NCBI GenBank assembly: GCA_002897635.1
Contig: BDTD01000037.1
Location: forward strand, 1-64,000
Reading direction: 5' to 3'
From: a bacterium BMS3Abin11
GTDB lineage: Bacteria; Pseudomonadota; Gammaproteobacteria; BMS3Bbin11
DNA: 64,000 nt
This document shows positions 4,163-52,148 of this stretch, piece after piece. How positions within the stretch are numbered: the first letter of the stretch is position 1; every line of letters begins with the position of its first letter. A program made the position numbers and the translations under genes. The notes beneath the pieces were generated by a model. That model saw nothing but the letters and a program-made list of their open reading frames with translations, was not told the DNA's origin and made no database searches.

Positions 4163-5119
4163 ATGAGTCGGTTTCTTCAGAAGATAGCAGATGCCAGAGT
4201 ACTGGTTGTTGGTGATGCCATGCTGGATCGTTACTGGTTTGGTGATGTAGATCGAATTTCCCCCGAGGCACCGGTTCCGGTGCTGGCAATTACCGATAAT
4301 GAAGAGCGTGCCGGCGGGGCGGCGAATGTTGCCTGCAATATCTCTGCACTGGGTGGTCTGTGTGACCTGATTTCCGTGGTAGGAAATGATGATGCGGCAA
4401 AAAGCCTTGAACGCCTGCTGTCAGAAAGAGGGGTAACTACCCGTTTTACCCACGATGAAAGTCATGTCACCACAGTAAAACTTCGCTTACTGTCCCGCAA
4501 TCAGCAGTTGCTAAGAGCCGATTTTGAACAAACACCCGACGATGTTTCTATCATTGCGGCGATGGATTGTTTCAAAAAGAGTCTGGATACGGCTGATATC
4601 TTATTATTGTCAGATTATGGAAAGGGAGTATTGCGTGATATTGATCTGATGATTGGTGCGGCAAAAGCAAAAGGGATAAAAGTACTGGTTGATCCAAAAG
4701 GGCGTGATTTTGCGCGTTACCGTGGAGCTAGCCTGATTACACCTAACCGGCACGAATTTGAGGATGTGGTCGGTCCCTGCCCATCACTAGAAAATATGGC
4801 AGTGAAGGCGGCTGAGTTACTGAGAACAATCGAAGTGTCATATCTGCTGATTACGCTCAGTGATAAGGGAATGGCCCTGTTTGATGTAGACGGACTGGTA
4901 TTTCATCAAAAGGCACGTGCACGAGAGGTATTTGATGTTAGTGGTGCCGGCGATACGGTTATAGGTGCAATTGCTGCCATGCTTGCTGCCGGTGCAGGCT
5001 ACCGGGAAGCAATTCATGTCGCCAATGCGGCAGCCGCCATTGTGGTCGGAAAATTAGGTGTTGCTACCGCCTCGGTTAATGAAATACTGGCTGAGATTGG
5101 AAAAGAGGAGGTCGAATGA
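4163..5119 (+). CDS. hldA: D-glycero-beta-D-manno-heptose-7-phosphate kinase
   Basis: Phosphorylates D,D-heptose 7-phosphate at C1 on the way to ADP-heptose for the LPS inner core. The protein is a PfkB-fold sugar kinase: RVLVVGDAMLDRYWFG near the N-terminus, GGAANVACN at about residue 50, and the anion-hole motif DVSGAGDTV near residue 258. At 318 residues it matches only the kinase half of HldE. The adenylyltransferase half (HldC-like) is absent from the window and must be encoded elsewhere. Its stop overlaps the hldD start (ATGA), so the two are co-translated. Confidence 0.92.
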   Translation: MSRFLQKIADARVLVVGDAMLDRYWFGDVDRISPEAPVPVLAITDNEERAGGAANVACNISALGGLCDLISVVGNDDAAKSLERLLSERGVTTRFTHDESHVTTVKLRLLSRNQQLLRADFEQTPDDVSIIAAMDCFKKSLDTADILLLSDYGKGVLRDIDLMIGAAKAKGIKVLVDPKGRDFARYRGASLITPNRHEFEDVVGPCPSLENMAVKAAELLRTIEVSYLLITLSDKGMALFDVDGLVFHQKARAREVFDVSGAGDTVIGAIAAMLAAGAGYREAIHVANAAAAIVVGKLGVATASVNEILAEIGKEEVE

Positions 5120-6117
5120 TCATCGTAACTGGCGGTGCTGGCTTTATCGGTGCCAATATTGTCAAAGGCCTGAATGACAGCGGTCGTGATGATGTTATTG
5201 TCGTGGATAACCTTGAGAAGGGTGAGAAATTTCTTAATCTGGTGGATCTGGAAATCGCTGATTACATCGATAAACGTGACTTCATTGATATGATCAATGG
5301 TGGTGAATTCAACGGCGATGTGGAAGCCATTTTTCATCTGGGGGCCTGCTCCGATACCATGGAATACAATGGCCTGTATATGATGTCGAATAATTATGAC
5401 TACTCGAAAACGCTGCTGCATTTCTGCCAGCAGAACAGGGCTTCTTTCATCTATGCTTCATCTGCCTCTGTTTATGGCGCCGGTCCGGTATTTCGCGAGT
5501 CACCTGAGTTTGAGTCACCACTGAATGTCTATGCCTACTCCAAGTTTCAGTTTGATAAATACGTTCGTCGCATGTATGAGGATCGTAGCGCACAAATTGT
5601 TGGTCTGCGTTATTTCAATGTCTATGGCGACCGGGAGCAGCACAAAGGCCGCATGGCTTCGGTAGCTTTCCATTTCAGTAACCAGTACCGGGAAACTGGT
5701 TATGTCAAGTTATTTGAAGGCGTAGATGGATATGAAAATGGTGCACAGCTGCGCGATTTTGTTTCTGTTGAGGATGTGGTTGATCTAAATCTCTTTCTGC
5801 TTAAGCACCCGGATGTCAGTGGCATCTTCAACGTAGGCACGGGGCATTGCCAGTCATTTAATGACATGGCGGTCGCCAGCATCAATCGCTGCCGCCTGGG
5901 AGAGGGCAAGGAAGCACAGGATCTGGCTACGCTGCAGCAGAAGAAAATTATTCGCTACATCGATTTTCCAGAAACCCTGAGAGGAAAATATCAAAGCTTT
6001 ACCGAAGCCGATATCTCCGCTTTGCGCGCTGCTGGCTACACAAAGGACTTCCTCACTGTCGAGGAAGGGGTCAGTCGTTATGTCGGGCGATTGATAGAAA
6101 AGTCAACGTCATCCTGA
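5116..6117 (+). CDS. hldD: ADP-L-glycero-D-manno-heptose 6-epimerase
   Basis: Converts ADP-D,D-heptose to the ADP-L,D-heptose used by heptosyltransferases. It is an extended SDR enzyme of 333 residues. The NAD(P) motif is TGGAGFIG at residues 5-12, the family signature [12 protein letters not shown] follows, and the catalytic YAYSK motif lies near residues 138-142. The start ATG overlaps the hldA stop. About 50 bp separate it from rfbB, which has its own apparent start region. Confidence 0.94.
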
Positions 6118-16507: not shown

Positions 16508-17503
16508 TTGGTCAAAAAACAGATAAGTCGGATCCCACATACTTCCGTAGGGGTCATTATCGTCAATTACAATGGCGGTGAAAGACTGGAGGCCTGTCTG
16601 AGTGCTCTGAAACAACAGACACGCCGACCGGATCAAATCATACTCGTCGATAATAACAGCAGTGATTTTATTGCAGAGAGTATTCAGAAAAGATTCCCTG
16701 ATGTGGAGATTGTTGAGCTGGAAGAAAATGTCGGTTTTGCAGCGGCCAATAATAAGGCAGTAGATTTGCTTTCATCCGTCGAATGGGTGGTGCTGCTCAA
16801 TCCTGATGCCTATGTAAAACCGGACTGGCTGGAGAAATATTTAGCGGGGGTCAGCGAGCATCCTGAGTGTTCATTCTTTGCCTGTCGCATGCTGTCGATG
16901 GACGGGCAGAGTCTGGATGGTACGGGTGATGTATATCATGTCTCCGGCGCCAGCTGGCGCCGGGATTACGGAAAACCTGCTGATCAGCGAAGACAAAATG
17001 GCGAAATATTCTCACCATCAGGTGCTGCCGCACTCTTTAAACGGGATGTTTACCTTGAAGCGGGTGGTTTAAATGAAGATTTCTTTTGTTATATGGAGGA
17101 TGTAGACCTGGGTTTTAGAATCCAGTTGCTCGGCTACCGCTGTTTCTATATTTCGGATGCCGTTGTGACCCATGAAGGATCAGCTCTGGTTGGCCAGCAC
17201 AGTGATTTTCAGGTGTATTATGGTCATAGAAATCTGGTTTGGGTCTATGTCATGAACATGCCATCACCCTGGATATGGATCTATCTACCGCAGCATCTGT
17301 TGTACAATGTAGCCAGTATTTTACTTTATATTCTTCGTGGCAAGACGGCTGTCATACTGCGTGCAAAATATGATGCAATAAAAGGGCTGGCCAGAGCCTG
17401 GCTACGACGTAAGGAAATTCAGGCAGAGTCCCGGGCTAGTACAAAAGATTTAAGGAAGAAGCTGTCACATAGTTTGCTTACTCCCTATCTGTATCGTGAT
17501 TAA
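16508..17503 (+). CDS. Family 2 glycosyltransferase, rhamnosyltransferase-like
   Basis: TTG start only 3 bp after the previous stop. The GT2 domain occupies about residues 12-240: VGVIIVNYNGGERLEACLSA, LVDNNSSD, LLNPDAYVKPDWL and the acceptor-side FFCYMEDVDLGFRIQLLGY. This is the GT2 subgroup that includes many rhamnosyl- and fucosyl-transferases such as WbbL. A hydrophobic C-terminal stretch near residues 255-285 may anchor it to the membrane. Substrate is not determinable. Confidence 0.85.
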   Translation: MVKKQISRIPHTSVGVIIVNYNGGERLEACLSALKQQTRRPDQIILVDNNSSDFIAESIQKRFPDVEIVELEENVGFAAANNKAVDLLSSVEWVVLLNPDAYVKPDWLEKYLAGVSEHPECSFFACRMLSMDGQSLDGTGDVYHVSGASWRRDYGKPADQRRQNGEIFSPSGAAALFKRDVYLEAGGLNEDFFCYMEDVDLGFRIQLLGYRCFYISDAVVTHEGSALVGQHSDFQVYYGHRNLVWVYVMNMPSPWIWIYLPQHLLYNVASILLYILRGKTAVILRAKYDAIKGLARAWLRRKEIQAESRASTKDLRKKLSHSLLTPYLYRD

Positions 17504-47443: not shown

Positions 47444-47534
47444 GGAGAGGTGGCAGAGCGGTTGAATGCACCGGTCTTGAAAACCGGCATGGGTTTGTAG
47501 CCCATCCAGGGTTCGAATCCCTGCCTCTCCGCCA
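47444..47534 (+). tRNA. tRNA-Ser (anticodon UGA)
   Basis: Acceptor stem GGAGAGG/CCTCTCC, discriminator G and encoded CCA. The anticodon arm reads CCGGTCTTGAAAACCGG with TGA at the centre. A long variable arm (CATGGGTTTGTAGCCCATC) and the T-arm GGGTTCGAATCCC are typical of tRNA-Ser. It marks the left edge of an accessory region. Confidence 0.96.
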
Positions 47535-47835: not shown

Positions 47836-48711
47836 CTATTCCAATCTCTCCCAGGGCAAAGACTCATAAAAAGACTGCACTACAGGATATATCAAATCAA
47901 AATCCGGCAGGTCGCCGACTATCTCATCGGCAAGGGTTGGGTATTCAGCCTTTGATCGTTTTCGTATTTCCTCATCTCGAAATGACTCTGCCTGAGGGTA
48001 AATTCCTCTAGAGTGGGCTTTTACTATCAGGCTATCCAGAATCTTAGCTTTCACCACAGCATCCAAATCAGGGAATTTTTCTATCAGCAGGAAAAGATCA
48101 AAAACATCCTGACGTCTGTGCCTTCCCCGCTTTAGTTGCTGCAATACTGATCGTATTTTCTCCGCGATTAGGTCAATGAGAGTGTAAGCAGTGAGTATCC
48201 CATCTCCGCCGATACTGAATTCATCGATATTGGGCATTAACTCATTCAGACTATAGTCGATGTCTATAGCTGTAGGGCATCTTCCTGCCAATAAGCGTTT
48301 GTATTTTTGCTCATGTTTATATGCATACCCGATTTTCATCTTAATTGATGGAAATTGGGCATCAGACTTATTAGCAGGCTGAACTTTGCAGCTTTGGATT
48401 TTGCATTCCAGGTCATAATCGAGAGACTCTCCCATTATGGCCATGCTTTTATTCAGCCTATTGGCTATCTCATCCTTGTTAATGTCCCCCAACATCTGAT
48501 TAGTGGAAAAATCGATATCCCTGGTATAGCGATGGCTGTTATATCGAATAGCTAAAAGAATTCCACCTTTGATTACCATGCTGGACTTGAGTGCTGGCTG
48601 GTTGGCGATGCCAGACAGGATGATATGAATAGCTTCTCTGAATTGCCTTTGATCCCCTTCGGGGACATCATTGACCCAGTCTTTAATATTGTGTTCTTCA
48701 ATCAACGACAA
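47836..48711 (-). CDS. abiEii: AbiEii-type nucleotidyltransferase toxin
   Basis: Toxin of a type IV toxin-antitoxin and phage-resistance pair; relatives block growth by modifying tRNA or other substrates with nucleotides. The 291 residues have the nucleotidyltransferase core KGGILLAIRYNSHRYTRDID (motif I with RDID) near residues 45-64 and a later RRQDVFDLFLLIEKF. No signal peptide. It lies 9 bp downstream of the AbiEi-like antitoxin gene, the standard order, in accessory DNA between two tRNA genes. Confidence 0.88.
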   Translation of the reverse strand: MSLIEEHNIKDWVNDVPEGDQRQFREAIHIILSGIANQPALKSSMVIKGGILLAIRYNSHRYTRDIDFSTNQMLGDINKDEIANRLNKSMAIMGESLDYDLECKIQSCKVQPANKSDAQFPSIKMKIGYAYKHEQKYKRLLAGRCPTAIDIDYSLNELMPNIDEFSIGGDGILTAYTLIDLIAEKIRSVLQQLKRGRHRRQDVFDLFLLIEKFPDLDAVVKAKILDSLIVKAHSRGIYPQAESFRDEEIRKRSKAEYPTLADEIVGDLPDFDLIYPVVQSFYESLPWERLE

Positions 48712-48720
48712 TCACCCTGA

Positions 48721-49617
48721 CTAAAATAAATTAATTGACAGGCACCACTTCTCAGAAAATTCCGGGATGTACTCCGCAGAGGCGTCTAATTTTCTTGAAC
48801 CTCCCCGTTGTACCTGAGAGAGCCACCCATCAATAAGAGGGTGCTTCAATTTAAGCTTTTCATCCAGAATGTATCCTGCCCGAACTTTATCTATGGGACG
48901 ACCATGATTTGTCACCTCATCGACGATAAGCTTCAAATAGGTCTCCGCATGCTCCTCATATACCTCAAGTACATGGCCAATGCCTCCACAAAGCTCCGGG
49001 TTTCGAAGCATATCGAGAAAAGTTCGACCAATGGTCGACACACGGTAGGGCTTATCCCTGATATTTTTATAAGCACCCAGGTGGATGCTATTATGTCTAT
49101 GTACCTCAGTTCGGCCAATTTTTACCATGTTGATCTTGCGTAACTCAGGCAAACCATTCTTTAGATATATCGCCAGGTCATCACCCAAATCCTTCTGCAT
49201 ACGATCAACGGCATATTTTCTCCACTCTCCTTTGCCAGGAGACGAAAGAAATAGTTTGCCGGGTATTCGGTTGGTTAGGCCGTGATGTGCCATGGCACTG
49301 AGATGGGATACATAGCAGAATGGATCTACCGAGCAGACAATCTCTTCTGATGGGGCATTGCTTCTTCCCAGAATACTAAAGACCGATTTACTGGAAAAGC
49401 TTTTGTGGGGATCCAGAATTCCATCATCAAGCAGGTTGTTAAGTGCAGTGGATAGTGAGCGCGAATCAGGGGAGTCCTTTTTGATGGACTGTATGGGTTC
49501 ACCTCGGAAAGATTTTGTCTGGTATATACGATAAACAATTACCGCTAATTGATAAAATGTGACAATTGGCTGATTTAGCTCAGACAGGGATAAAGACAGG
49601 GCTTTTGTTAATTTCAT
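48721..49617 (-). CDS. abiEi: AbiEi-type antitoxin / transcriptional repressor
   Basis: A 298-residue protein. The N-terminal ~90 residues suit a winged helix (FYQLAVIVYRIYQ, LSTALNNLLDDGIL). The C-terminal part has SHLSAMAHHGLTNRIP and the family hallmark RVSTIGRTFLDMLRNPELCG. AbiEi proteins repress their own operon by binding inverted repeats in the promoter. Two long perfect palindromes lie directly upstream, the nearer one only 4 bp from the ATG. Confidence 0.88.
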   Translation of the reverse strand: MKLTKALSLSLSELNQPIVTFYQLAVIVYRIYQTKSFRGEPIQSIKKDSPDSRSLSTALNNLLDDGILDPHKSFSSKSVFSILGRSNAPSEEIVCSVDPFCYVSHLSAMAHHGLTNRIPGKLFLSSPGKGEWRKYAVDRMQKDLGDDLAIYLKNGLPELRKINMVKIGRTEVHRHNSIHLGAYKNIRDKPYRVSTIGRTFLDMLRNPELCGGIGHVLEVYEEHAETYLKLIVDEVTNHGRPIDKVRAGYILDEKLKLKHPLIDGWLSQVQRGGSRKLDASAEYIPEFSEKWCLSINLF

Positions 49618-49621
49618 TACA

Positions 49622-49666
49622 GCTTACCAATGATATACGTCCTCAGGACGTATATCATTGGTAAGC
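49622..49666. promoter_or_regulatory. 45-bp perfect palindrome at the abiE start (probable operator)
   Basis: Two 22-bp arms are exact reverse complements around one central base, with the core GTCCT-C-AGGAC flanked by ATATAC. It ends 4 bp before the abiEi start codon. In the leftward mRNA the loop area (GTCCTGAGGAC) contains the only Shine-Dalgarno-like GAGGA, so the structure could control both transcription and translation. Confidence 0.8.
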
Positions 49667-49738
49667 ACTGATTGTCAAGTTTATAAGACGTTAAATATAG
49701 TAACAAAATTTTCATTAACTTGACTAAATTGATACTTC

Positions 49739-49777
49739 ATCAGTATACTAATGTCCTAAGGACATTAGTATACTGAT
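49739..49777. promoter_or_regulatory. 39-bp perfect palindrome upstream of abiE (second operator)
   Basis: Arms of 19 bp (ATCAGTATACTAATGTCCT and its reverse complement) around a central A. It shares the GTCCT-N-AGGAC core and TATAC-rich flanks with the palindrome at 49622. The 72 bp between them is AT-rich and probably holds the promoter. Paired inverted repeats are a known feature of AbiE promoters. Confidence 0.8.
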
Positions 49778-50044: not shown

Positions 50045-50637
50045 ACCACCGCCTCTGGCGGTGAGACAAGAAAAGGCTCAGCCGTTCCGGTGTGCGGAGT
50101 AGATAATGGCCTCTCTTTGAATCGGCAAGTTCTATAGGATGCCATTATGAGAGAGTAGCAACGACAAGCTCACGTTAAACATTATTGCAGATATCACGTA
50201 GTGTTTATCCCAAAATATCGTAAGAAGTCGATATATGGGACGTTAAGAAAAGGATATTGGAGGGATCTCTCGAGACCTGTGTCGTCAAAATGGGATTGAA
50301 CTGGTGGAAGGCCATGCGATGGATGATCATGTGCATATGCTGTTGATTATTCCCCCGAAATTCAGCATAGCCAATACGATAGGGTTTCTGAAAGGAAAAT
50401 CAGCGATACGGATATTCAGAGAATATTTACAGGTGAAACGGAATTTTACAGGAAGGCGCTTTTGGACCCGAGGCTACTGTGTCAGTACTGTGGGATTAGA
50501 TGAAGAGATGATCAGCATCTACATCAAGAATCAGGAACTGGAAGAAAAACGCCAGGAGCAAATAAGATTAAAAGTAGTTTAACAATAGCCCCTTCCAGGG
50601 GCTTTCACCATACCACCCGCTTTGCGGGTGGTCGTTG
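50044..50637 (+). mobile_element. IS200/IS605-type insertion sequence, decayed
   Basis: Left-end hairpin CCACCGCCTCTGGCGGTG at about 50046 and right-end hairpin ACCACCCGCTTTGCGGGTGGT near 50611-50631 bracket one tnpA-like reading region. A second stem (AGCCCCTTCCAGGGGCT) follows tnpA. No terminal inverted repeats or target duplication are seen, as expected for this family. Exact ends are estimates. Confidence 0.75.
50148..50582 (+). pseudogene. tnpA: IS200-type transposase tnpA, nonsense and frameshift mutations
   Basis: From ATG 50148 the frame reads M-R-E-stop-QRQAHVKHYC then HVVFIPKYRKKSIYGTLRK. The TAG at 50157 sits where the family has Tyr. At the AAAA run near 50247-50250 the homology moves to the next frame, continuing KDIGGISRDLCRQNGIELVE and GHAMDDHVHML (the HUH-type histidines), then RRFWTRGYCVSTVGLDEE. 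The catalytic Tyr region is still readable, but the gene cannot make full protein. The intact tail from 50304 is only 92 residues. Confidence 0.8.

Positions 50638-52058: not shown

Positions 52059-52148
<90 letters not shown>

Follow-up and report, generated by a model that had tools for sequence, protein, structure and literature searches.

The abiE operon and its upstream palindromes

The window, by which we mean the whole 64-kb stretch of DNA analysed here, carries an AbiE toxin-antitoxin operon on its minus strand, as the original prediction stated. The first gene, abiEi (48721-49617), encodes an antitoxin and putative repressor of 298 aa that matches the PADLOC family PDLC02237 (3e-111), and the second, abiEii (47836-48711), which follows 9 bp downstream on the same strand, encodes a nucleotidyltransferase toxin of 291 aa (Pfam PF08843, 6e-27; PDLC02306, 8e-107). 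As is characteristic of type IV AbiE systems, the nucleotidyltransferase gene lies directly downstream of an AbiEi whose AlphaFold2 model (mean pLDDT 89) combines a winged-helix N-terminus with a nucleotidyltransferase-like C-terminus. Upon fold comparison with the PDB, only AbiEi of S. agalactiae (6y8q) and Rv2827c of M. tuberculosis (1zel) matched this model with E < 0.001; a phmmer search of the PDB with the protein sequence found no direct relatives. The operon is flanked on both sides by tRNA-Ser genes (47444-47534 and 52059-52146), and a remnant of an IS200-like (Y1) transposase, in which the C-terminal part alone is open and which is likely a broken copy, occupies 50140-50582, upstream of the palindromes described below.

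Two long palindromes precede abiEi. The near one, P1 (45 bp, 49622-49666), consists of two 22-bp arms around a single central C at 49644 and ends 4 bp before the minus-strand start codon of abiEi at 49617, and the far one, P2 (39 bp, 49739-49777), consists of two 19-bp arms around an A at 49758 and lies 72 bp beyond P1. Both are free of mismatches and share the core GTCCT-N-AGGAC (GTCCTNAGGAC; 49639-49649 in P1 and 49753-49763 in P2), which encloses the centre TCCT-N-AGGA (49640-49648 and 49754-49762, respectively), and their outer arms are unlike. In all these respects the original prediction proved exact. A perfect arm of at least 19 bp is expected by chance at about 4^-19 per centre, which is negligible, and the sole other palindrome in the window with arms of at least 10 bp is one of 10+10 at 16944.

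Conservation of the symmetry within one AbiEi subfamily

Relatives of the window AbiEi belonging to the subfamily defined by PDLC02237 were gathered from genomes and plasmids, yielding 27 loci in Pseudomonadota and Cyanobacteria, among them the window itself, two Pseudanabaena, Pandoraea, Nitrosococcus, Thiodictyon, Diaphorobacter, Xanthomonas, Rhodobacterales, Enterobacterales, Pseudomonas, and Acinetobacter, with 25-59% identity to the window protein where aligned. These correspond to about 20 independent lineages, because some loci are close relatives (L001/L002, L005/L009, L011/L014, L018/L020/L023). Palindromes of the P1/P2 type occur upstream at all 27 loci, two of them at 21 and one at the remaining six, in which a search for a second, imperfect palindrome found none that was convincing. 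The palindromes therefore form a conserved system across two phyla.

All 48 palindromes carry the centre TCCTNAGGA, and at positions 1-18 from the centre every one of the 864 pairs is Watson-Crick, with no G:U or G:T pair among them. Further outward the paired fraction falls to 0.88 at position 20, 0.56 at position 22, and about 0.4 beyond, reaching background by position ~30. Arm lengths range from 18 to 26, with 32 in the two cyanobacterial loci. Outside the centre the arm letters are nearly free, save that the near palindrome is TATA-like at positions 7-10. Within a locus the arms of P1 and P2 are scarcely more alike than in shuffled pairings (identity 0.40 vs 0.34, p = 0.014 in a test that ignores relatedness), reaching 0.6-0.8 in a few loci, and within Xanthomonas the inner arms are kept while the flanks diverge. 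The two centres are 84-153 bp apart across loci, with no fixed spacing or helical phasing. What is preserved is thus symmetry at the DNA level, rather than any particular sequence or a hairpin in RNA, since the symmetry and the 9-base centre are constant whereas the arm letters change. Operators usually hold their sequence while their symmetry drifts; the abiE palindromes reverse this pattern, their symmetry being constant without exception and their sequence drifting across two phyla.

This architecture is not a general property of AbiE promoters. The comparison with other AbiE promoters that had been proposed revealed mismatch-free arms throughout the 27 PDLC02237 loci, but no such palindrome upstream of abiEi at any of 47 control loci from other subfamilies (19 of PF13338 and 28 of PDLC02267). 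Nor do the palindromes behave as dispersed mobile repeats or insertion hairpins of the REP, MITE, or IS200 type that came to lie upstream of abiE by accident. The transposase remnant about 0.4 kb upstream would fit such an origin, but the GTCCTNAGGAC 11-mer occurs in the 2.67-Mb genome only at P1 and P2 and not in several similar copies, 11 of 13 AbiE plasmids contain exactly two cores, and the arms differ from locus to locus in spite of their association with abiEi at 27 of 27. Copy number thus contradicts this explanation, which we consider hardly conceivable.

Predicted promoter layout and candidate AbiEi operators

Promoters were called as consensus matches, namely a -35/-10 pair with a spacer of 16-18 and the -10 box inside a palindrome arm, and compared with shuffled flanks. 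Of the 27 near palindromes, 24 have a promoter directed towards abiEi (3.1 expected) and three have one directed away from it (2.7 expected). At the far palindrome this orientation was reversed, as 12 of 21 loci have a promoter leading away from abiEi (2.9 expected) and two have one leading towards it (2.6 expected). Most predicted starts are no more than 3 nt away from the centre of their palindrome. In the window, the predicted abiEi promoter (minus strand) comprises a -35 box TTGACA just outside P1 (49673-49678) and, after a spacer of 18, a -10 box TATACG in the upstream arm (49649-49654), with a predicted start near the centre at ~49642, while the predicted outward promoter at P2 (plus strand) comprises a -35 box TTGACT (49720-49725) and a -10 box TATACT in the near arm (49744-49749), with a predicted start at ~49756. 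Since the promoters point in opposite directions at P1 and P2, the palindromes would be the start-site elements of a predicted divergent pair. Inverted repeats covering the promoter and start of their operon, as an operator would, are accordingly present in silico at the 24 loci. Of the original claim that the palindromes control the abiE operon, their belonging to the operon and their position over its predicted promoter hold, and binding by AbiEi itself would be expected by analogy with characterised AbiEi proteins.

This layout also bears on the suggestion that, within the abiEi mRNA, the near palindrome would form a hairpin masking the ribosome site, thus exerting control at the RNA level. 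In the window P1 does end only 4 bp from the start codon, and any transcript running across it should fold strongly. However, because the predicted start falls inside the palindrome, at its centre, the abiEi mRNA would hold a single arm; in addition, G:U pairs, which an RNA stem would tolerate, are absent, and the start codon lies at no fixed distance from the near centre, being anywhere between 25 and over 50 nt away depending on the locus. Together these features disfavour an RNA hairpin, and we regard this part of the original prediction as highly improbable.

That AbiEi antitoxins bind inverted repeats, as the original prediction noted, is known: their targets are pairs of such repeats located at the start site of their own operon (PMC3985639, PMC7319586). 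For instance, the S. agalactiae AbiE operator, at which AbiEi acts as an autorepressor, is one pair of 23-bp inverted repeats over promoter and start (PMC3985639, PMC7319586). These repeats are 3 bp apart and imperfect, with four mismatches in 23 bp and only the outer 11 bp perfect (PMC3985639), whereas the loci described here mostly have two palindromes with a 1-bp centre, no mismatch, an invariant centre, and free arms, such that conservation is strongest centrally and not at the outer ends. A second parallel is the M. tuberculosis Rv2827c-Rv2826c operon, in which the AbiEi-like antitoxin, whose structure (1zel) the predicted fold of the window protein matches, binds two inverted-repeat pairs upstream of its gene (PMC7319586). 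There, however, the repeats are 13 bp apart within a set, the sets 4 bp apart, and agreement with the consensus varies, as opposed to perfect palindromes whose centres are 84-153 bp apart, with predicted divergent promoters. Similarly, Streptococcus suis ICESsuHN105 has two palindromic AbiEi promoter sites, IR1 and IR2, both required for repression, and the part of that report drawn on here does not mention long mismatch-free palindromes or covarying arms (PMC11062541). In the literature searched we found no description of a perfect-palindrome AbiE promoter; thus, binding of inverted repeats by AbiEi is already known, and the perfect, fused layout with an invariant centre is what differs.

Taken as a whole, we consider it probable that the palindromes are fused pairs of AbiEi operators serving autorepression, with symmetry kept at the DNA level. 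Each would be a pair of fused AbiEi half-sites, because the arms of 18-26 bp come near to one 23-bp AbiEi repeat, placed over a sigma70 promoter with the start at its centre. By analogy with the known operators, AbiEi would contact the invariant TCCTNAGGA centre and the flanking arms, turning off its own promoter at P1 and, at most loci, also controlling a second, outward promoter at P2. At least 18 bp of arm would have to mirror each other, the letters being largely free. Several observations count against this reading: P1 and P2 arms of one locus have little in common beyond the core, so that a lone sequence-reading protein would not in itself account for symmetry out to 18-22 bp; six of the 27 loci have a single palindrome; and two phage contigs have such a palindrome without AbiE.

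Alternatively, the palindromes could be ordinary sequence-specific operators, in which AbiEi reads each 20-bp half-site in full and the two arms come to share one best sequence. The binding of S. agalactiae AbiEi monomers to 23-bp repeats speaks for this, as do the inner arms conserved within Xanthomonas between diverged flanks and the few loci in which P1 and P2 arms are 0.6-0.8 identical. In most loci, however, the arms of P1 are unlike those of P2 although one AbiEi should bind both palindromes, and four mismatches in 23 bp are tolerated in S. agalactiae as against none in 864 pairs here. We consider this alternative possible, albeit on balance unlikely.

Another alternative dispenses with the reading of arm sequence. 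The palindromes might act as DNA hairpins or cruciforms of which AbiEi or another protein reads the TCCTNAGGA tip, the stem being required merely to pair; extrusion, caused by supercoiling from the divergent promoters or by single-strandedness, would then switch the promoter, and the operon would sense DNA topology or phage replication. Structural elements are usually marked by just such a constant loop on a stem whose letters vary freely while every pair stays Watson-Crick. In addition, the DNA hairpins are predicted to be stable (-15 to -33 kcal/mol, with a T-N-A loop), the predicted promoters diverge with their -35 boxes between the palindromes, and P1 and P2 arms are unlike within a locus. 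On the other hand, a centre containing G+C should slow extrusion, the inner arms are conserved at the level of clades, as sequence contact or a -10 box would cause, and AbiEi proteins are not known to bind hairpins. We find this alternative doubtful. Its stronger form, in which the symmetry is itself the signal, is rather unlikely: AbiEi or a partner would recognise a hairpin or cruciform tipped with TCCTNAGGA, and as a phage or plasmid replicates, DNA topology or exposed single strands would switch the promoter. These loci separate what is read by a protein from what is paired with itself, and offer a clean natural test case for the old question of hairpins and cruciforms in promoter DNA.

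Proposed arm copying, phage contigs, and neighbouring genes

Among close relatives, positions 1-18 show seven compensated double changes and no single change, single changes being confined to position 19 and outward. Two recent one-sided changes lie at position 19 (L056) and position 21 of the far palindrome (L049). The latter belongs to a Xanthomonas plasmid in which abiEi is annotated as two fragments (L049:528-1438), and the change perhaps reflects relaxed selection. The central base changes as well. Near-identical 4.7-kb plasmids occur in Klebsiella, E. coli, and Salmonella; among these, the only differences of L045 and L047 from L019 over 301 bp are a T replaced by A at one centre or at both. 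As a flip gives rise to a second match, match counts suggest that the centre is flipped at the far palindrome in about 11 of 49 plasmid records and at the near one in three; flips were read directly in L045, L047, and L055. In part they could be assembly errors at palindromes, and flips of a one-base spacer to its complement only are hard to obtain by point mutation.

Polymerase template switching at inverted repeats homogenises arms and inverts spacers (PMC8604942; see also PMC8794818). Paired changes together with centre inversion are the marks of such hairpin-templated copying. As at the yeast template-switch repeats, arms become identical and the spacer is inverted repeatedly; unlike the short repeats in yeast coding DNA (PMC8604942), those described here occupy one promoter class across phyla, and because they are kept there selection should act besides copying. 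For the fused operators that we favour, template-switch synthesis would copy one arm onto the other, flipping the central base, and selection would purge asymmetric versions; copying is the preferred route by which symmetry may be restored, since nothing but base pairing between the arms, at some point, could check each against its partner.

The two phage contigs bear the TCCTNAGGA centre within arms of 19 (L090:5471-5509, beside a phage capsid gene) and 18 (L092:213-249), by eye without a clear -35 box, and no AbiEi was found in either record. Searches for AbiEi relatives in viral contigs and for AbiEii in phage records found none, and of the 25 sites in viral contigs that match the core together with seven arm positions, 23 have arms no longer than 7-9. 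The two palindromes may serve as decoy, as trigger, or for an unrelated use, and would be natural decoys or triggers if the symmetry were indeed the signal. The symmetry kept at the abiE promoters also bears on phage sensing by AbiE, for which these contigs suggest a place to look.

Beyond the subfamily, a cyanobacterial AbiEi locus has two perfect even palindromes (L148:1375-1457) with arms of 19 and 17 and the common centre GGTATATATACC, its toxin gene being convergent and not downstream. A search for similar cases found L147 only. This single case hints that symmetry, and not the TCCTNAGGA core, may be the general feature.

In enterobacterial plasmids (L019:3697-4365; also L018, L020, and L023) a third gene follows abiEii and encodes a PP2C-type protein phosphatase, which may act on a phosphorylated toxin. 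Furthermore, two plasmids have genes for WGR-domain proteins bordering AbiE (L010:939-1424 and 4884-5144; L015:2126-2353).
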